DNA of 39,783 bases from Mycoplasmatota bacterium (GTDB taxonomy: Bacteria > Bacillota_I > Bacilli_A > RF39 > UBA660): positions 1 to 39,783 of the forward strand of contig JAAYGD010000002.1 of assembly GCA_012727915.1 (NCBI GenBank). Direction: 5' to 3'. The translations under genes and the position numbers were made by a program. The notes beneath the pieces were generated by a model. That model was given only the letters and a program-made list of their open reading frames with translations, did not search any database and had not been told where the DNA came from. Below are positions 153-33,986 of this stretch, one piece after another; position 1 is the first letter of the stretch, and the number at the start of each line of letters is the position of its first letter.

Positions 153-500
<348 letters not shown>

Positions 501-10943: not shown

Positions 10944-12185
10944 TTATTTGTTTAATGTTGGGTAATTACTACACAATACATTAATTTGTATATTAACTTT
11001 GTTTTGAAGCTCTGTCGCTTTTTCCATATAATTTCCTATATTAGGATCATTTATAAATGGTAATTTTTCAATTGCATATCCTAAAACAACTAACTCTTCA
11101 ATCGGATTATATTCTAGATTATCATCAACTTTTTTAGATATATTATCAATTAAACCAAAAATAAATTTATAATTATTTGGATTCTTTTTATATTCAATAA
11201 ATTTTTCTTCTACTTCTTCAAGTCTTGCTTTTGCATCTAAATCTTTTGTAAACAAATTAGATAAACCATATTCTTTACCAAGATATTTACTAAAATTTGA
11301 AATACCACTTTCTAAAGTTCCTCTTATATAATCAAATTTATTTTGTGAGCTAGATTTATCATTTAATAAATTATCTAATCCATTATTTATAAAATCATAT
11401 AAATCATTTAAACTATTTTCAGAAAACAATATATCTGTTTCAATACCTATATTATTTTCGCCTTCTTTTTTTGCTCCATCGAGCATAGCATTTCTATAAT
11501 TACTTAATATTTCTTTTTCTGAATTAAGTAGTTCTAACACCTCTTTAGTAGCTAATGGTCTCAAAGTTGGTGTTGGCGCTTGTGTTGGCAATTGTGTTGG
11601 TGTTGGTGCTTGTGTTGGTGCTTGTGTTGGTGCTTGTGTTGGTGCTTGTGTTGGCGCTTGTGTTGGCAATTGTGTTGTTTCAGTAACAACATCAACTAAC
11701 CCTGTTTGATTATTAGATAAGTTAGATACATCTTTATTTTTATTTTTATTTACCAATGTATAAGCATACAATCCAATTGCAGCCGCTGTTACTAAAGATA
11801 AAAAGATTGCTACCGCTTTCTTGTCTTTGGATTTTTGGCTATTTTTAGCATCTTTAATTTTTTGTTTATCTGCCTCTTGTCTTATTTTTATGGATTGAAG
11901 TATATTTGTATTTTCTTTGGTTGCATTAAATATGACATTGTATTTTTTATCTTCATTTGAATAAATTGTTTTAATGTATCCATTAGATTCTTCAACACTA
12001 TCAATATTTAAAACTAAAGAGTCAATAATAGGTTTCAATTCTTTTATTTTTTCTTTTCCTCTTACTACGGTTTTAATCAAATCTTTTTCTTCATATACTA
12101 CTGAACCATTATATTCCAAAGAATATAAAGCTATATAATCTCCGTATATTTTATATTTTACTATATTATTAATTTCATAATTCAT
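10944..12185 (-). CDS. membrane-anchored protein: cytosolic N-terminal domain, single TM, TQAP-repeat linker, external alpha-helical domain
   Basis: TM AVAIFLSLVTAAAIGLYAYTLV after a Lys-rich stretch, then (TQAP)n, then a domain resembling part of the adjacent ORF. Confidence 0.8.
   Translation of the reverse strand: MNYEINNIVKYKIYGDYIALYSLEYNGSVVYEEKDLIKTVVRGKEKIKELKPIIDSLVLNIDSVEESNGYIKTIYSNEDKKYNVIFNATKENTNILQSIKIRQEADKQKIKDAKNSQKSKDKKAVAIFLSLVTAAAIGLYAYTLVNKNKNKDVSNLSNNQTGLVDVVTETTQLPTQAPTQAPTQAPTQAPTQAPTPTQLPTQAPTPTLRPLATKEVLELLNSEKEILSNYRNAMLDGAKKEGENNIGIETDILFSENSLNDLYDFINNGLDNLLNDKSSSQNKFDYIRGTLESGISNFSKYLGKEYGLSNLFTKDLDAKARLEEVEEKFIEYKKNPNNYKFIFGLIDNISKKVDDNLEYNPIEELVVLGYAIEKLPFINDPNIGNYMEKATELQNKVNIQINVLCSNYPTLNK
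11566..11689 (-). repeat. 12-bp minisatellite encoding the TQAP linker
   Basis: Plus strand ggtgcttgtgtt tandem copies with ggcgcttgtgtt and ggcaattgtgtt variants. Confidence 0.9.
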
Positions 12186-12213
12186 AAATATTACCCCCTT
12201 TTAATAAATAATA

Positions 12214-13359
12214 TTAAGCTTTCTTTTTTATTGTTTTTGCTCTAGCTTCTTCAACAATAGGATATATTGCATTATCATCTAAATCCACTATAAAGTTACC
12301 AGGCATATTAATTAAAATATTTTCGTTATTCATGTTTACTAACACGTTAGCTAAAATTTGAGTTGCTTTGCCTTGCAATTCGTTTTCAACTAAACCCGCT
12401 GGATTTAACATATCATTTCTTTGTTTTTCGCTTATATTGTTTGCAATTATGCCGTTCATTGCTTGAATTGCTTTGTTTTCAACATCGTTAATATCTCTAA
12501 TTAATCCATATAAAGACAAATATTCATCATTGTCTTCGTGTTTAATTGCATTAACTCGATTAACTAATTCATTTAATTCTTCCTCTGTGTAATCTTTTCT
12601 TTGAAACATATGAGTAGAAAATTCTGTAAATATTGTTCCGCTTTCATTATTTGCAAAAAAAACTATTTTTCTCTCATCGTTATTTTCGTCCAAATACATT
12701 ATTGATCTTCCGTCTCTTGGATTTACAGTTCCATTTTCTTTCTCTTCGTATATGTAATTCGCAGGTATTGATGCTGCTGCTCCCGCTAAAATACAAACAC
12801 TTACGATTTCTATCATAGTTGAATATGGATATCTATCAAGACCTCTAAAAGATCTAAAAATTTGATCATAAGAATCTTTATTTCCAATTAAATGAACATA
12901 TTGATATCTATCTTCTTCTCTTCTAAATAGTTCTTTTTCAGCTTTGTCAACAACATAATTAGATATTCTAAAATTTTCTTTATTATATTTACCAAAATAA
13001 TAAGCTACTCTTTCTACAAAAATAGATGCTTTTTGTGCTTCTTTGTTAATATCTTGCCAATCTAAATCATCAAAAGGATATCTTCCGTTTACTAACATAA
13101 GTGCATTATATGCAGTATCTAAATTTGCCATTACATCAGTTTCTAACCCAATATTTTCTATTCCTTCAAGAGCAGCGCCTTCCTTATAAGCATTCAAAAA
13201 AGCCACTACATCTCTAGAATATGTCCTATTTGGATAAGTAACTGTTTTTTCTTGATTAAGTGGTCTTTCACTAGCGCTTGCAGTTACTAAATTTGATGCC
13301 CCCATATTCATTAAAGTAATTAATGCCAACATTGAAGCTATTTTTTTATTTTTATTCAT
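12214..13359 (-). CDS. secreted protein with signal peptide, partner of ORF 10944-12185
   Basis: MNKNKKIASMLALITLMNMGASNLVTASAS signal peptide. Shared motif GIENIGLETDVM versus GENNIGIETDIL in the neighbour. Confidence 0.8.
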   Translation of the reverse strand: MNKNKKIASMLALITLMNMGASNLVTASASERPLNQEKTVTYPNRTYSRDVVAFLNAYKEGAALEGIENIGLETDVMANLDTAYNALMLVNGRYPFDDLDWQDINKEAQKASIFVERVAYYFGKYNKENFRISNYVVDKAEKELFRREEDRYQYVHLIGNKDSYDQIFRSFRGLDRYPYSTMIEIVSVCILAGAAASIPANYIYEEKENGTVNPRDGRSIMYLDENNDERKIVFFANNESGTIFTEFSTHMFQRKDYTEEELNELVNRVNAIKHEDNDEYLSLYGLIRDINDVENKAIQAMNGIIANNISEKQRNDMLNPAGLVENELQGKATQILANVLVNMNNENILINMPGNFIVDLDDNAIYPIVEEARAKTIKKKA

Positions 13360-16173: not shown

Positions 16174-16195
16174 AAAATCTATTTTTTTAGATTTT
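16174..16195 (-). terminator. intrinsic terminator of the prepilin-like pair
   Basis: AAAATCTA-6-TAGATTTT followed by a minus-strand T run. Confidence 0.65.
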
Positions 16196-17045
16196 AATTA
16201 ACATTAACTATTCTTGTAATTGTGTTAGCTTTATTGCCATTTACATCAGATACATCGTAGTACCTATAATATGTTCCTTTTGTTGAAGTATCTACTACTC
16301 CAGTTATTGTTATTCTTGCAGTAATATCGCCATCTTTATTATCAATTGCAATAGCTCCTTGTTCATTATATGTGTTACCCACAAGTAACGATATTGTACT
16401 TGCTCCAACCAAAGTTATTACTGGTTTTACATTGTCTGATTCTATAATAGTATCCTCTACAATTACCTTCCTTTTTACTTGATCTGAAGTAGAATAACTA
16501 TATATAATTTCATATTCTCCTTCAGTAGAAGTGTTGACACTTCCTGTAATATTTATTGGATCTAAATTAGAAATTGTAACATTTGTTGTATCAATAACTA
16601 CAGCTCCATATTCATAATAACTTCCGTTTACAGTTATTTTAATTTCTGAAGGTCCTTTTAATACAATAATAGGTTCTGAATTTTGTTCTCTATCATATAA
16701 TGTGTATATTTCTCCATCAATTAAATATAAAATTACATTATCAGTTTTTTCAATCGTAAGTTTAGTATTTATTATTAAATCTTTATCATCAATAAAACCT
16801 TTATCAAAAAGAGTTTGTACAGTAATTAATGCTATACTATTTGAATCTATTGTTGGTATTTCACTTTTGTAGTTTTGATAATAAATATTTGCAGATTCTT
16901 CTATCAATTTAACTTGAGAATCAGATGCAAAGCTTTTTCCATAACTCAAATCTTCATCAACAATAGATATTAATATAGTAATTAGTACTCCTAATAAAAT
17001 TAATACTCCTAAAGTTTCTATTAAAGTGAATCCTTTACTTTTCAT
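16194..17045 (-). CDS. type IV prepilin-like protein with two Ig-like (DUF5011-type) domains
   Basis: MKSKGFTLIETLGVLILLGVLITILIS N-terminus, then repeats such as PVITLVGASTISLLVGNTYNEQGAIAIDNKDGDITARITITGVVDTSTKGTYYRYYDVSD. Confidence 0.88.
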   Translation of the reverse strand: MKSKGFTLIETLGVLILLGVLITILISIVDEDLSYGKSFASDSQVKLIEESANIYYQNYKSEIPTIDSNSIALITVQTLFDKGFIDDKDLIINTKLTIEKTDNVILYLIDGEIYTLYDREQNSEPIIVLKGPSEIKITVNGSYYEYGAVVIDTTNVTISNLDPINITGSVNTSTEGEYEIIYSYSTSDQVKRKVIVEDTIIESDNVKPVITLVGASTISLLVGNTYNEQGAIAIDNKDGDITARITITGVVDTSTKGTYYRYYDVSDVNGNKANTITRIVNVN

Positions 17046-17061
17046 ACTTACTCCTTTTATA

Positions 17062-17658
17062 CTACATATCATCAGTTACTATAACATTTCTTTCTATTAT
17101 ATTTGAATTTTGATAAAAATACTTCAAAACATATACCCCTTCTTTAGAAGTATCTACAGTACCCGAAAATGCTGCTACATTAGAATTAGTATTTGTACCA
17201 TCAAACCCAATTGCTCCCGGATCTACATAAGGTGTTCCCAATTTTACTTTATCATTAAAAAAACCCTTTAAAGTAATAGTAGATTTATTTTTTTGATCAA
17301 TATCATAAGTAGTTTTAATGTTATTATTATAATCTAAAGTTATATAAATAACGTCATCAATAAATAACGTCTCATTATTCATAGGATTTTTTATATTTGC
17401 ACCAATATAATTATTATCAATCAAGGTTTTTAAGCTTAAATTCATAAATCCAAATCTATTTAATTCATCTAAATCTCTTATATTATCTGTTGCATATTTC
17501 TTAGCTGCTATTTCTATATTATTTACTTGAGCTTCCATTGCTTTTGTTTTAGTTTCTTTCATTTTATCACTTAAAATTGGAATTGTAATAGTAATTAATA
17601 TCATTATAATAATTAAAACCGCTAAAACCTCTATTAATGTAAATCCATTATTTTTCAT
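17062..17658 (-). CDS. type IV prepilin-like protein with one Ig-like domain
   Basis: MKNNGFTLIEVLAVLIIIMILITITIPIL N-terminus; C-terminal STITLKGFFNDKVKLGTPYVDPGAIGFDG..FSGTVDTSKEGVYVLKYFY. Confidence 0.87.
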   Translation of the reverse strand: MKNNGFTLIEVLAVLIIIMILITITIPILSDKMKETKTKAMEAQVNNIEIAAKKYATDNIRDLDELNRFGFMNLSLKTLIDNNYIGANIKNPMNNETLFIDDVIYITLDYNNNIKTTYDIDQKNKSTITLKGFFNDKVKLGTPYVDPGAIGFDGTNTNSNVAAFSGTVDTSKEGVYVLKYFYQNSNIIERNVIVTDDM

Positions 17659-17685: not shown

Positions 17686-19008
17686 TTATTTATCTATTTT
17701 TATTATTATTTGATATAATCTTTCAAAATCAAACTCTTCATAATCAATCTTTACTCCACTATTTTGAATACTTTCAATTATTTTTTTAATCATATTTTTT
17801 GAATTTGATATATCCCCTCTATCTTCTTTCGGTTTAACTTCATCATTAATAATGAATCTATTTTGAGATATAGGTTCTTCTTGAAAATTATTTTGAACTT
17901 TATCTGATTCTAATAACTTATCAATATCAAATCCTGAAGAAGTATTTAATGATTGATTTTCATTATTATTAATATTTATAGGTTCAGCATAATTGGATTG
18001 TGGTGTTAAATAACTATCTTTTATATCTTTTCTTGGAATTACATATGGACTAGGATTAACTAAAGTAGCTTCTTTAAATATATTTAAATTTGTATCATTT
18101 TCAATATTACTTAATCTATTTATTATTTCCATTTGTGGATTTTCTTCATAATTATTATGTGGTTCAGCCTTTTTTTCTTCAATCTCTTCTTTAACTTCTT
18201 CATAAACGAATGGTTTTGGAGCATTTATAATTGGTTTAGTTTCTTCAACTTCATTTTCAATATTTTCTAAATTGAAGTTCATTATGTTGTTTGGTCTTTG
18301 ATTTTCAATAACTTCTTCTTCTATTTTTTTAGGTTGAACCGGAACATCTTCAATTATTTCAGATTCTTTATTATGCATTATTTCTTCCACAACTTCTTCA
18401 ACACCGTATCTTTCTTTAATAATATCATCTGTAGCTTTTACTGTTAATTTATTATTTATTATTTCATTTAACATTTTTTGTTGTTCATTATTGTCCTTAA
18501 TAGATAATAAACTTCTTGCATGTCTTTCAGATATTTCTTCCTTTACTAGAGCTTCTTGTACTTTTTCGTCCAAAGATAAAAGTCTAAGTTTATTTGCAAT
18601 ATATGATTGACTTTTTCCCAAACTAATTCCCAATTGCTCTTGAGTAATGCCTCTTTGTAATAATTTTTTATAGGATTTTGCCTCTTCTAATGCTGACATG
18701 TTTTTCCTATGAAGATTCTCTACTATTGCAACCTCTGCACTTTTGTTATCATCTAAATCAACAACAATAGCAGGAACTTTGCTTAACCCAATTATTTGAG
18801 ATGCTTTATATCTTCTTTCTCCCGCAATTATTTCGTATTTTTCTCCCAGTTTTCTTACTACTAAAGGTTGTATTATTCCATGTTGTTTTATAGAATCCGC
18901 TAATTCCATTAAAGATTTTTGATCAAAATTTAATCTAGGTTGAAATCTATTTGGAATTATTTCATCTAAAAATATTTCTTTTATTTCTTTTTCTAATTCT
19001 TCGTTCAT
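17686..19008 (-). CDS. noc: ParB/Noc-family nucleoid occlusion protein with a long linker insertion
   Basis: PNRFQPR, GIIQPLVVR, IIAGERRYKA, ENLHRKNMSALEEA and GKSQSYIANKLRLLSL..ISERHARSLL. C-term SGVKIDYEEFDFERLYQIIIKIDK matches the Noc C-terminus. Adjacent to rsmG with no parA next to it. Confidence 0.85.
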   Translation of the reverse strand: MNEELEKEIKEIFLDEIIPNRFQPRLNFDQKSLMELADSIKQHGIIQPLVVRKLGEKYEIIAGERRYKASQIIGLSKVPAIVVDLDDNKSAEVAIVENLHRKNMSALEEAKSYKKLLQRGITQEQLGISLGKSQSYIANKLRLLSLDEKVQEALVKEEISERHARSLLSIKDNNEQQKMLNEIINNKLTVKATDDIIKERYGVEEVVEEIMHNKESEIIEDVPVQPKKIEEEVIENQRPNNIMNFNLENIENEVEETKPIINAPKPFVYEEVKEEIEEKKAEPHNNYEENPQMEIINRLSNIENDTNLNIFKEATLVNPSPYVIPRKDIKDSYLTPQSNYAEPININNNENQSLNTSSGFDIDKLLESDKVQNNFQEEPISQNRFIINDEVKPKEDRGDISNSKNMIKKIIESIQNSGVKIDYEEFDFERLYQIIIKIDK

Positions 19009-22865: not shown

Positions 22866-24215
22866 TTATTTAAGTTTCTTTTTCAACAAGTCTATAGAAT
22901 TTTTAAAATCTTTATCTTTTTTTATTTCTTCTTCTATTTTATTGCATGAATGTATAACTGTTGTATGATCCCTACCTCCAAATTCTATACCAATTCTTGG
23001 AAAACTTTCTTCAGTTAAATTTCTAGATAAAAACATTGCTACTTGTCTGGGAAGTACAAAATTTTTATTTCTTTTCTTTGAATTCATATCTTCTAAAGTT
23101 ATTTGATAATAATCACAAACTATTTTTTGAATTTTTTGTATATTATTTTTCATATAAGAATTGGAATTCAAAAAGTCACTTAAAGCTTCTTTAGCAACAT
23201 CTAATTCAATTTTTTCTTTATTAAACATTACTGTGTACGCAAATAATCTATTTAAAGCTCCTTCTAATTTTCTTACATCAGATGTGCAATTATTTGCAAT
23301 AAATATTAAGACATCTTCAGAAATAGGTTTTGCAACTTCATGAGCACTAATTTTTTTCTTTAATATTTCTATTCTTAACTCATAATCAGGAGGAAAAATA
23401 TTTACTGCTAATCCCCAATTAAATCTTGTTCTCAATCTTTCTTCTAATAGTTTTAAATCATCGGGAGATCTATCAGAAGATATTATTATTTGTTTTCCTT
23501 CTTGATGTAATTCATTAAAAGTATGAAAAAATTCTGTTTGACTTTCTGTTGCTCCCGCTAAAAATTGTATATCATCTATAATGAGAACATCAATATTTCT
23601 ATATTTATTTTTAAATGAGTCAACATTATCCATATTATTTTCATCATGTTTTCTTTTATTTATAGCAATAAAATCAGATTTAAATTTGTCACTTGTTATA
23701 TATAATACTTTTTTATTAGTTTCACTAACTATATAATTTCCAATGGCATGCATTAAATGTGTTTTTCCTAAACCACTACTACCATATAAAAACAATGGAT
23801 TATATGCTTTACCAGGTCTTTCCGCAACAGCAAAAGCAGCGGTAAAAGCCATTCTATTTGTTTCTCCAATAACAAAAGTATCAAATGTGTAGTTAGAATT
23901 TAAATTAGCTTGAATTGGATTATTGAATGGAACACCTTCTTCAATTTTATCAATTTTTTTATCATTTATTTCTTCTTCCAACAAAAACTCAAAATCAAAA
24001 TTAGTACCAGTCAATTTATTCATATTTTCTTTAATAATATCATAATATGTTTCTGATAAGTTTTTTTTATGAAGATTCATTGGAACTATAATATACATTT
24101 TTTTATTTTCAACTTTATGAAGTCTTGTTTCACTGAACCATGCATCAAATGCAATAGGAACTAATTTTTCTTTAATTAAATTCAAAAAATTTATCCACAG
24201 ATCTTTTTCATCCAT
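22866..24215 (-). CDS. dnaA: chromosomal replication initiator protein
   Basis: NPLFLYGSSGLGKTHLMHAIGN, VLIIDDIQF and GGRDHTTVIHSCNKI motifs. Confidence 0.98.
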   Translation of the reverse strand: MDEKDLWINFLNLIKEKLVPIAFDAWFSETRLHKVENKKMYIIVPMNLHKKNLSETYYDIIKENMNKLTGTNFDFEFLLEEEINDKKIDKIEEGVPFNNPIQANLNSNYTFDTFVIGETNRMAFTAAFAVAERPGKAYNPLFLYGSSGLGKTHLMHAIGNYIVSETNKKVLYITSDKFKSDFIAINKRKHDENNMDNVDSFKNKYRNIDVLIIDDIQFLAGATESQTEFFHTFNELHQEGKQIIISSDRSPDDLKLLEERLRTRFNWGLAVNIFPPDYELRIEILKKKISAHEVAKPISEDVLIFIANNCTSDVRKLEGALNRLFAYTVMFNKEKIELDVAKEALSDFLNSNSYMKNNIQKIQKIVCDYYQITLEDMNSKKRNKNFVLPRQVAMFLSRNLTEESFPRIGIEFGGRDHTTVIHSCNKIEEEIKKDKDFKNSIDLLKKKLK

Positions 24216-24440
24216 AATTACTTCTCCTTGATTTTATTTCTTTATTACATTACTATTGTAAATCATTTTGCCTAAAAATTAAACAAAAAAAGTTAATTAA
24301 CAATATATAAACATATTTATCCACAAGATATTTAGGTATATTTAAATACTATATGAGTAGTTATCCACAAATTTCAATAATAATCTTATCAACATACAAA
24401 ATAAATAATTCAATTAAGTTGTTAATATGTTGATAACATT
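24191..24440. other. oriC: replication origin region (oriC) with DnaA boxes
   Basis: TTATCCACA at 24191-24199, 24317-24325 and 24361-24369; TTATCAACA at 24386-24394 and reverse at 24428-24436. AT-rich, between divergent dnaA and rpmH. Confidence 0.9.
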
Positions 24441-24444
24441 TTAA

Positions 24445-24473
24445 TTGACTTTTAATGGTAATACCATTATAAT
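24445..24473 (+). promoter_or_regulatory. rpmH promoter
   Basis: TTGACT (24445-24450), 17-nt spacer, TATAAT (24468-24473). Confidence 0.85.
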
Positions 24474-24503
24474 TATAGTGATTTAAGGACAGGAGGAATT
24501 ACA

Positions 24504-29266: not shown

Positions 29267-31192
29267 ATGGAAAACATTAATAATTTACACTATGATTCGT
29301 CTGATATTCAAGTATTAGAAGGTTTAGAAGCTGTTAGAAAAAGACCGGGTATGTATATTGGTACAACCGGATCTAAAGGATTACATCATTTGGTATGGGA
29401 AATTGTTGATAATGCAGTAGATGAAGCGTTAGCGGGTTATTGTGATGATATTGAAATAACTATAGAAAAAAACAATATAATTACAGTAAAAGATGATGGA
29501 AGAGGAATTCCAATTGATATACATCCTAAAACCGGAGTGTCTACAGTTGAAACGGTTTATACTGTTCTTCACGCGGGTGGAAAATTTGGAAACGGAGGAT
29601 ATAAAGTATCGGGAGGCCTACATGGTGTAGGAGCATCTGTAGTAAATGCATTAAGTTCTTTTTTAGAAGTTACAGTATATAAAGAGGGAAAAATATATTT
29701 TCAAAGGTTCAAAAATGGGGGAAAACCCGAAGATATTTTGAAAATTATTGGTGAATGTGACATAAACAGAACAGGAACCACAGTTAGTTTTAAAGCTGAT
29801 CCGACTATTTTTGAAGAAACAATCGAGTATGATTATGATATTTTAAAAAACAGAACAAGAGAGCTAGCTTTTTTAAATAAAGGGCTTAGATTTATATTAA
29901 CTGATGAAAGAGAAGATACTAAAAAGGATATATTTATCTATGAAGGTGGAATATCAGAGTACGTAAATTTATTAAATAAAAATAAGACACCAATACATAA
30001 GGATATTATATATTTTGAAGAGACGGAAGAAGATATAAAAATAGATATTTCGTTACAATATACTGATACATATACTGAAAACATATATTCTTTTGTTAAT
30101 AATATTAATACCTATGAAGGTGGAACACATGATGAAGGTGTCAAAAGAGCATTAACAAGAATAATTAACAATTACGCAAAAACAAATGGTTATTTAAAAC
30201 AAAATGATGAAGCTTTGATTGGTGAAGATGTTAGAGAAGGTTTAACTATGATAATATCTGTTAAACATCCTAACCCTCAATTTGAAGGTCAAACAAAAAC
30301 AAAACTTGGAAACACAGAAATTAGAAAAATATCAGATAACATTTTTTCTAATGGATTAGAGAGATATTTACTTGAAAATCCTGAAGAAGCTAGAAAGATA
30401 ATGGATAAAGTTTTTTCTGCAGCAAGAGCAAGAATGGCTGCTAAGAAAGCAAGAGAGTTAACAAGAAGAAAAGGATTACTAGATATTTCTAACCAATGGG
30501 AAAAATTAACTGATTGTTCTAGTAAAGATCCAACAATATCTGAAATATTTATTGTGGAAGGGCGAAGTGCAGAAGGCCCAGCCAAACAAGGAAGAGATTC
30601 CAAAACACAAGCTGTAATTCCTATTAGAGGAAAAATATTAAATGTTGAAAAATCTAGGCTTGATAGAATATTAGGAAACGAAGAAATAAGAAATTTAATT
30701 ACTGCATTTGGTACTGGTATTGGTGAAGAATTTGACTATACAAAATTAAGATATTATAAAATAATTATAATGACAGACGCAGATGTTGACGGATCACACA
30801 TTAGAACTTTATTGTTAACTTTTTTATATAGATATTTTAAGCCTTTGGTTGAGAAAGGTCATGTTTATGCTGCTCAACCACCATTATTTAGAATATCTCA
30901 TGGTAAAACACAAAAATATGTGCTTAATGAAAAAGAAAGAGATGAATATATTTCTACTTTACCAGAAAATACAAAAGTTGAGATAGTAAGAATGAAAGGT
31001 CTTGGAGAAATGGACGCTATTGAACTAAGAGAAACCACTATGAGTGTTAATTCGAGAACTTTAATAAGATTAAATGTTGAAGATGCAATTGTTGCGGATG
31101 AAACTTTTCAACTATTAATGGGTGAAGAAGTAGAACCACGTAGACAATTTATAGAAGAAAATGCATTAAAAGTAAGAAATCTAGATGTATAA
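29267..31192 (+). CDS. gyrB: DNA gyrase subunit B
   Basis: [40 protein letters not shown] and [18 protein letters not shown] motifs. Confidence 0.98.
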
Positions 31193-31202
31193 AGGAGAAG
31201 AT

Positions 31203-33632
31203 ATGGAAGAAAAAAATATTGATAAAATAGAAGATATAAATTTATCTTCAGAAATAAAAAATTCTTTTCTCGATTATTCTATGAGTGTTATTGTATCAAG
31301 AGCTATTCCTGATGTAAGAGATGGATTAAAACCAGTTCATAGAAGAATATTATATACTATGTATGAAGAAGGTATGACACCAGATAGAAAACATCAAAAA
31401 AGCGCTAATGCTGTTGGAGCTGTAATGGGACATTATCATCCTCATGGAGATTCAGCAATATACGATAGTATGGCTAGAATGGCTCAAGATTTCACATATA
31501 GGCACGTCCTTGTTGATGGTCATGGAAACTTTGGCTCAGGTGATGGCGATAGTCCGGCTGCTTCGCGTTATACAGAAGCTAGATTATCAAAAATATCAAT
31601 GGAGTTATTAAGAGACATAAACAAGAATACTGTTGATTTTATTGATAATTATGATGGTCAAAGAAAAGAACCAACTATACTTCCTTCTAGATTTCCTAAT
31701 ATATTAATTAATGGTAATATGGGTATTGCGGTAGGAATGGCAACAAATATACCTCCTCATAATTTGGGAGAAGTCATTGATGGCTGTGTTGCTTTTATAG
31801 ATAATCCTGATATTTCAGTATTAGAATTGATGCAACATATTAAAGGACCAGATTTTCCTACATATGGATTTATTATAGGAAATAGTGGAATAAAAAAAGC
31901 CTATGAAACAGGGAGAGGATCAATAACTTTAAGAGGAAAAGCAAAAATTATTGAAGAAGAAAACAAAAAAAGCCAAATTGTTATTACCGAAGTGCCTTAT
32001 CAAGTTAGCAAAACAAATGACTTAACTAAAAAAATTGGAGAATTAATTCGAAACAAGCAAATAGATGGTATAAGTGATTTGCATGATGAATCAACACTTG
32101 AAGGAATTAAATTAACAATTGATTTAAAAAAAGAAGCAAATGCAAACGTAGTTTTAAACAATCTATATAAACATACACCTTTACAAATAAATTATGGGAT
32201 TAATTTATTAATGTTGGTAGATGGAAGGCCTAAAACATTGGGCTTAAAAGAAATATTAAGATATTATGTAGAATATCAAAAAAGCATAATTGTACGAAGA
32301 ACACAATTCGATTTAGAAAAATCTAGAGCTAGAGAGCATATTTTAGAAGGATTAAAAATTGCATTAGATAATATTGACGAAATTGTTAAAATTTTAAAAA
32401 GTTCAAAAGACGATAATAAAGCAAAAGAAGAATTAAAATTAAGATTTGGACTAACTGATATACAGTCCGAAGCAATTTTAGAAATGAAATTAAGGAGATT
32501 GACTGGTCTCGAAAGAGGAAAAATCGAAGAAGAACTTAAACAATTATTAGAATTAATTAAAGAATTGGAATCAATTCTTAATGATTCTAAGAAAGTATTG
32601 GATATAATCAAAAAAGAGATGATTGAAATTAAAGACAAATATTCAAACGAAAGAAGAACTATTATAGATACTTCTTCTATTGAAAATATAGAAGACGAAG
32701 AATTGATAACAAGAGAAGAGATAATAGTTACACTTACGAATAATGGATATATAAAAAGATTACCTTTAGATACCTATAGAATACAAAATAGAGGCGGAAC
32801 AGGAATAAAAGGTATGAATACTAATGAAGAAGATTTTGTCGAGAATTTAATAATGCTAAATACTCATGATTATCTATTATTATTTTCAGATAAAGGGTTA
32901 ATTTACAGAATTAAAGGTTATGAGGTTCCAGAATTTAGTAGGCAATCAAAAGGTTTACCAATTGTAAACTTGATTCCTTTGGAAAAAGAAGAAAAAATAA
33001 CTTCAATATTAAAAATAACTAAAGAAGAAGAAAATAAATGCTTATTGTTTGTAACAAAAAGAGGATTAGTTAAAAGATGTAATGTTTCAGAGTTTGAAAA
33101 TATTAGAAAAACCGGAAAAATTGCTATTAAATTAAAAGAAAGCGATAAATTAATAGCGGTGTTAAAAACTGATGGCAATACCGAAGTAGTCATGGCTTCT
33201 TCCACCGGAAAAATGGTTAGATTCGATGAGAATGAGATAAGAATAATGGGAAGAAATGCAACAGGAGTAAGGGGAATTAATTTAGAAAAAGATGCTATAT
33301 GTATTGATGCAAACATATCTGATAGTAATAGCGAAGTATTGGTCGTAAGCGAAAATGGATATGGTAAAAGGACATCAATTGAAGAGTATAGAAAAACTAA
33401 AAGAGGTAGTAAGGGAGTTAAAACACTAAATGCTACTAATAAAACGGGTAAGATCGTTGCGTTTAAGCTTGTAAATAACGAAGAGGATTTAATGATAATA
33501 ACAGATTTTGGTATGATTATACGAATTCCTATAGTTCAAATATCAAAAATGAGTAGAGTCACTCAAGGAGTAAGATTAATTAATTTAAAAGAAAACCAAA
33601 AAGTATCATCTGTATTTAATATAAAAGAATAA
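31203..33632 (+). CDS. gyrA: DNA gyrase subunit A
   Basis: [27 protein letters not shown] and [16 protein letters not shown]-like [23 protein letters not shown], plus C-terminal beta-pinwheel repeats. Confidence 0.98.
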
Positions 33633-33648
33633 TGATAAACATGCATTT

Positions 33649-33664
33649 TATTTCCCGGGAAATA
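33649..33664. promoter_or_regulatory. Noc-binding-site-like palindrome, copy 1
   Basis: TATTTCCCGGGAAATA, perfect 16-bp palindrome. Confidence 0.75.
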
Positions 33665-33672
33665 ATAAAAAA

Positions 33673-33688
33673 TATTTCCCGGGAAATA
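33673..33688. promoter_or_regulatory. Noc-binding-site-like palindrome, copy 2
   Basis: TATTTCCCGGGAAATA, embedded in a 28-bp perfect palindrome (33667-33694). Confidence 0.75.
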
Positions 33689-33696
33689 TTTTTTAA

Positions 33697-33712
33697 TGTT
33701 CCACGTGAAACA
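33697..33712. promoter_or_regulatory. parS centromere site 1
   Basis: TGTTCCACGTGAAACA, matches TGTTNCACGTGAAACA. Confidence 0.93.
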
Positions 33713-33739
33713 TAAACCAGATTAAAAGATATAGAACAA

Positions 33740-33755
33740 TGTTCCACGTGAAACA
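33740..33755. promoter_or_regulatory. parS centromere site 2
   Basis: TGTTCCACGTGAAACA. Confidence 0.93.
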
Positions 33756-33782
33756 TAAGCAAGATTAAAAGATATAGAACAA

Positions 33783-33798
33783 TGTTCCACGTGAAACA
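33783..33798. promoter_or_regulatory. parS centromere site 3
   Basis: TGTTCCACGTGAAACA. Confidence 0.93.
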
Positions 33799-33852
33799 TA
33801 AGCAAGATTAAAAGATATAGAACAAAGCTTCAAACAAAACTAAGCAAATAAG

Positions 33853-33881
33853 TTGATAAATTTTCGTTATTATAATATACT
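33853..33881 (+). promoter_or_regulatory. SRP RNA promoter
   Basis: TTGATA (33853-33858), 17-nt spacer, TATACT (33876-33881). Confidence 0.75.
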
Positions 33882-33887
33882 TATATA

Positions 33888-33968
33888 GACGTAACAAACC
33901 CCTTAATATAATTGGTCAGGATCGAAAGATAGCAGCCCTATTAAGTGGGATTGTGTACGTCGTTTTTT
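33888..33968 (+). ncRNA. ffs: signal recognition particle RNA, small bacterial (4.5S-like) type, with T6 terminator
   Basis: GGTCAGGATCGAAAGATAGCAGCC core; GACGTA/TACGTC terminal pairing; T6 tail at 33963-33968; upstream of tadA and dnaX. Confidence 0.93.
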
Positions 33969-33970
33969 AA

Positions 33971-33986
33971 TGTTCCACGTGGAACA
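33971..33986. promoter_or_regulatory. parS-like site 4, perfect palindrome
   Basis: TGTTCCACGTGGAACA, 1 mismatch from TGTTNCACGTGAAACA but fully symmetric. Confidence 0.85.

Follow-up and report, generated by a model that had tools for sequence, protein, structure and literature searches.

ParB and Noc are CTP-dependent clamps, each of which loads at its own site, parS or NBS, and then slides. In the stretch of DNA analysed here (the window, 39,783 nt in length), sites of both kinds lie together in a small island next to gyrA. This raises the question of whether two ParB-type systems are joined at this origin or only stand near each other. Based on the sequences, the locus is best read as part of an origin-restricted Noc-NBS system that is co-located with ParB-parS in this uncultured lineage, and we give this reading a probability of roughly 0.78.

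Two NBS and four parS sites near the origin

The features on which the argument rests are listed below.

31185..33632, plus strand: gyrA, adjoining the island on its left
33649..33664, no strand: NBS 1, TATTTCCCGGGAAATA, perfect and palindromic, 17 bp downstream of the gyrA stop codon
33673..33688, no strand: NBS 2, TATTTCCCGGGAAATA, perfect, 8 bp upstream of parS 1
33649..33694, plus strand: terminator-like hairpin in which the two NBS form a 16-bp stem with an 8-nt loop, followed by a T6 run (fold z-score -6.4)
33697..33712, no strand: parS 1, TGTTCCACGTGAAACA
33740..33755, no strand: parS 2, TGTTCCACGTGAAACA
33783..33798, no strand: parS 3, TGTTCCACGTGAAACA
33697..33825, no strand: three 43-bp tandem repeats, each opened by a parS
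33880..33974, plus strand: small SRP RNA gene (RF00169, 45.7 bits), within the island
33971..33986, no strand: parS 4, TGTTCCACGTGGAACA, before tadA
22866..24215, minus strand: dnaA, used as the origin marker for relatives
24216..24490, no strand: oriC region between dnaA and rpmH, containing DnaA boxes at 24317 and 24361, with a third at 24191 (dnaA start)
17686..19008, minus strand: noc, an NBS-type ParB paralog of 440 aa that lacks a membrane helix and has about 170 aa of acidic linker ahead of its C-terminal domain

The original prediction had named two perfect NBS, three parS sites of one type and one of another, and all six were found at the positions given above. The parS set of the window was matched by none of 100 shuffles, and no NBS beyond the two was found in the window, even at three mismatches (shuffle expectation 0.22). 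The island had been placed between gyrA and the SRP RNA gene; this holds for the NBS pair and for parS 1 to 3, while parS 4 is outside the interval, because the SRP RNA occupies 33880-33974 and parS 4 overlaps its final 4 nt. The DnaA boxes beside dnaA place oriC there, and thus the predicted distance of about 9.4 kb between oriC and the island is correct. In the island itself, no DnaA boxes were found.

Statements on whole genomes are based on pattern searches. In the source genome (872,930 bases in 76 contigs, 93.8% complete), the proposed scan for both motifs revealed no perfect NBS or parS beyond the six in the island and none at one mismatch, and matches with two mismatches were few, with a frequency about that of the reversed-pattern control.

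Two further regions of the window are mentioned in passing. At 153-488 (minus strand), a short serine-recombinase-like N-terminus is joined to an unrelated tail and is probably a remnant. At 10944-13359 (minus strand), two adjacent proteins have no NCBIfam match, and one of them carries a (TQAP)n repeat behind a predicted membrane segment.

NBS are conserved and origin-proximal in the family

The NBS core pattern WTTTCCCGGGAAAW was searched in 98 genomes of the family, one per genus. It is present in 85 of them, usually in one to five copies and in one genome in 20, and the reversed-pattern control gave zero. The class and phylum samples from outside the family contain it only rarely. Sites for ParB were detected in 65 of 80 family genomes. 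Free variation of the NBS next to conserved parS would have spoken against a joint hub; instead, the NBS are kept in these 85 genera.

The positions of NBS, dnaA, gyrA and parS were combined for 45 genomes, the relatives being fragmented metagenome-assembled genomes. Among the matches listed, 88 of 133 NBS share a contig with dnaA, and none of these 88 is farther than 27.2 kb from it, the median distance being 8.9 kb. Many of the listed NBS on other contigs sit on fragments that carry the origin neighbours dnaX, recR or pth, since the contigs break in repeat arrays. One NBS in G014 (C1:104579) is seemingly about 110 kb away from the origin. In 13 genomes every exact match to the relaxed NBS is on origin-region contigs, and allowing one mismatch adds just three stragglers elsewhere. 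In several genera the NBS flank dnaA on both sides, and further preferred places are found inside dnaX and between psp1 and pth.

The strict core is missing from 13 of the 98 genera. A general loss of the system in such genera is contradicted by one of them, G093, which has no strict NBS but harbours four TATTTCCTGGGAAATA variants on a 1.04-Mb contig, all within about 18 kb of dnaA. In G033, nine variant parS sites, TGTTACACGTGTAACA, were found without NBS (L202, G033:C20, 13958-14975). In the proteins of this genome (L167, L144), S172 of ParB is replaced by N and Q173 of Noc by V, so that, at the level of sequence, the site and the residue reading it look like a co-varying pair. In the sister family f19, relaxed matches were few and mostly scattered, and we claim the pattern there for G298 and G330 only.

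Inside dnaX, NBS occur at several points of the variable linker and nearly always in the frame reading (N/I)-I-S-R-E-I (L049, L050, L058, L199, L203, L206, L209 and other loci). These in-frame sites use the rare codons TCC CGG. The arginine codon within the NBS is CGG in 22 of 22 cases, compared to 2.2% CGG in the remainder of the same dnaX genes, as expected if the DNA site and not the peptide is kept. The codon choice argues against a mere conserved peptide.

One ParB-type protein of each predicted specificity

The source genome encodes two strong ParB_N proteins. The Noc-type protein of the window (17686-19008) adjoins rsmG. Among the NCBIfam models nucleoid_noc (TIGR04285) fits it best, with 279.2 bits, which is under the cut-off of 315. 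ParB is encoded in a canonical parA-parB operon (L044 4992-6681, G000:C41), which is thus on another contig than noc. In several relatives (compared: G068, G004, G055 and G053) the distance between noc and parB is about 2.3 kb, as in B. subtilis. In a tree of 65 rows, all Noc-type proteins of the family and the Noc proteins of B. subtilis and Geobacillus were separated from all ParB-type proteins and Spo0J with support of 100/99.

The positions that set specificity according to Jalal et al. (PMC7383237), namely 173, 179, 184 and 201, are occupied by Q/K/S/R in the Noc of the window and by R/I/N/G in its ParB, which keeps with R173 and G201 the parS-type residues. Q173, K179 and R201 are kept in all Noc-type proteins of the family except the one with V at 173. 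Position 184 is not K here, unlike in B. subtilis, and K179 alone was reported to be sufficient for NBS-type specificity (PMC7383237). Judged by these residues, the two proteins divide the specificities between them, one being of the NBS type and the other of the parS type. A parS cluster near oriC and a ParA-ParB operon with parS-type residues are thus both present, as in a chromosomal ParABS centromere.

Aligned with Geobacillus Noc (7nfu) and B. subtilis Noc (7ol9), the Noc of the window starts only at their residues 25 and 27, respectively, and therefore the N-terminal, membrane-targeting amphipathic helix is missing. The Noc proteins of the family likewise lack it, most of the 34 that were scanned having no more than 15-22 residues ahead of NRFQPR. 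In two other families of the class, the Noc proteins (G122, G330) similarly begin near the QPR motif and have short N-termini. A substitute cationic amphipathic helix in the linker or the N-terminus was rejected, since a crude scan found one in only 1 of the 34 proteins. Their linkers have a median length of 189 aa and a median net charge of -22, and the C-terminal stretch after the linker probably resembles the Noc dimerisation domain. These acidic disordered linkers (e.g. L049, L147 and L153) share the short motifs (V/I)D(I/V)xKIxENAxDI and NKFFNFLED, which are possible partner-binding peptides. On the chromosome, noc is adjoined by two pilin-like genes (16194-17658, minus strand) with a ComGC/GspG-type N-terminus and long C-terminal extensions.

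Juxtaposition of NBS and parS

The surroundings of gyrA in 52 family genomes were analysed for the nearness of the two kinds of sites, with NBS accepted up to one mismatch. The gyrA-dnaX gap holds NBS in 30 of the 52 genomes, and in all 30 it also contains parS; the juxtaposition is frequent but not universal. The nearest NBS-parS pair is at most 30 bp apart in 21 genomes and at most 100 bp apart in 28. In the other 22 genomes the parS interval is free of NBS; most of these genomes have NBS elsewhere near the origin.

Interleaved arrays, with parS and NBS in each unit, were found at G241, G013, G021, G053, G004 and L068. The spacing is mostly fixed within a genome, and the surrounding bases diverge in several arrays; in G013, G241, G053 and L068 the flanks diverge while the parS-NBS pairing stays. 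A fixed helical phasing of the two sites was rejected, because the spacing, though constant inside a given array (28 bp for G241, about 46 bp for G013), changes between genera. Conservation of a DnaA box between the two sites was rejected too, as the box is strong in L068 and L207 and absent from the window and most genera. Matches to the DnaA box TTATNCACA recur in the arrays of a few genera, often beside parS (L068 5696-6805; L207 10358-12163). Across 86 loci, 33 such matches were counted vs 9.2 expected.

Possible roles of the island

Starting from the sites, their exclusivity, origin restriction and conservation, the specificity residues and the missing helix, all of which we observed, we propose that the island would be the ParB centromere of the chromosome with Noc loading sites built in alongside. 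ParB would load at the four parS sites and feed ParA- and SMC-driven segregation of the origin, while the Noc paralog would load at the two NBS, 8 bp from the parS array, and then slide onto adjacent DNA, as other ParB/Noc CTP clamps do. By analogy to these clamps we infer binding, CTP clamping and sliding for both proteins. With NBS only near the origin, Noc could mark the origin region but not the whole nucleoid. It may condition freshly replicated origins by restraining Z-ring assembly or re-initiation until ParABS separates them, and it would act via its long acidic linker rather than a membrane helix. Origin-specific control of division or initiation as the cellular role of Noc is a tentative assignment, to which we give clearly less than even odds. 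It would fit with B. subtilis, where Spo0J and Noc act jointly at early replication (PMC6852036), and with S. aureus, where Noc controls replication initiation (PMC5540599).

It is tempting to go one step further. There is no cross-reaction between ParB-parS and Noc-NBS (PMC11109969), and clamps that load at their own sites and then slide would occupy the same few kilobases and encounter each other; ParB sliding is known to be blocked by a DNA-bound protein (PMC7053999). Adjacent or interleaved parS-NBS units could then be a composite centromere, at which two orthogonal ParB-type CTP clamps form one origin complex. From the sequences we consider this doubtful. The hub idea of the original prediction is partly supported: both sites are origin-restricted and often adjacent or interleaved across the family, and a protein of either specificity is encoded, but the pattern is not universal, given the 22 of 52 genomes described above. 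The two complexes may load side by side, compete or spread into each other, as that prediction suggested.

Co-location without coupling is an alternative that we place somewhat short of even odds. Both proteins would need origin-proximal sites, Noc and ParB would work independently, their nearness would have no effect, and the long gyrA-dnaX gap would be a permissive place in which tandem repeats grow. The nearness of NBS and parS may be a by-product of their both being tied to the origin in a single long gap, and the 22 genomes with no NBS there, most of which have them elsewhere near the origin, together with the variable spacing among genera, fit this. It accounts less well for the pairs within 30 bp in 21 genomes and for the pairing that persists in arrays with diverged flanks. 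An unlikely alternative, in our estimate, is that Noc is mainly a regulator of replication initiation or a boundary element, with NBS clamps flanking oriC that limit DnaA or block ParB spreading. The NBS on either side of dnaA in several genera, the excess of DnaA boxes that a few genera show in the array gap, initiation control by S. aureus Noc (PMC5540599) and the block to ParB sliding (PMC7053999) are in line with it, but the island of the window lacks DnaA boxes and has NBS on one side only of the parS array.

Ordinary chromosome-wide nucleoid occlusion, in which Noc would also use degenerate NBS throughout the genome and the perfect ones would merely be the strongest, is improbable. It would suit the orthology of Noc in the tree and the few relaxed matches elsewhere in relatives; however, in 13 genomes these amount to the three one-mismatch stragglers mentioned above, and in the source genome to none. 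B. subtilis Noc needs its amphipathic helix for membrane binding and occlusion (PMC4331003, PMC8429893), and the absence of this helix argues against ordinary occlusion here. Together, the lack of NBS elsewhere and of the helix makes it unlikely that Noc acts as in B. subtilis. At the other extreme, the NBS pair could be nothing but the intrinsic terminator of gyrA, with a coincidental NBS match. The pair does have the makeup of such a terminator, a GC-bearing hairpin with a T run directly after the gene, and in the window it likely has a dual use as predicted terminator and putative Noc site, a possibility absent from the original prediction. A terminator role cannot explain the family-wide pattern, however: NBS are mostly single, occur also in dnaX and other gaps, and are kept at the DNA level. 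The codon choice in dnaX likewise argues against a mere terminator, and we regard coincidence as very improbable.

Comparison with known systems

Noc was described as a ParB duplicate that acquired a new, chromosome-spread DNA site and a membrane helix (PMC7333895). The family studied here separates these two innovations, since it has the DNA specificity but keeps its sites at the origin and lacks the helix. Thus the order of events in Noc evolution becomes testable, also with the short N-termini in two other families of the class. If the composite centromere were true, Noc would probably have begun as an origin-specific partner of ParB, pre-dating the helix and the chromosome-wide sites of Bacillus and Staphylococcus. 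Further, naturally occurring arrays of as many as a dozen parS-NBS units offer a test bed for whether two sliding-clamp systems on one DNA help or block each other. Our literature searches, which covered open papers only, turned up no description of NBS that are restricted to the origin or interleaved with parS. The novelty lies in the arrangement and in the form of the protein, the components being known.

The original prediction had treated both kinds of sites as usually dispersed. This applies to NBS, with about 70 dispersed sites in B. subtilis (PMC4331003) and 41 across +-700 kb in S. aureus (PMC5540599), but not to parS sites, which are normally clustered at the origin (PMC7383237). With these two Noc-NBS systems the family shares an orthologous Noc (tree, rsmG neighbourhood), the same 16-bp site and the same key specificity residues. 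It differs from them in having one to five NBS, rarely more, near oriC instead of sites dispersed over the chromosome and absent near ter, and in a Noc with a long acidic linker and without the N-terminal amphipathic helix. Like a chromosomal ParABS centromere, the locus combines a canonical ParA-ParB operon of the R173/G201 type with a perfect tandem-repeat parS cluster about 9.4 kb from oriC; unlike it, a second, paralogous site is found beside or inside the parS array, and parAB is not next to noc here. Two orthogonal protein-site pairs are also brought together in mParSpot (PMC11109969), but that is an engineered tool for dual labelling in human cells, whereas the pairing described here is natural and conserved.
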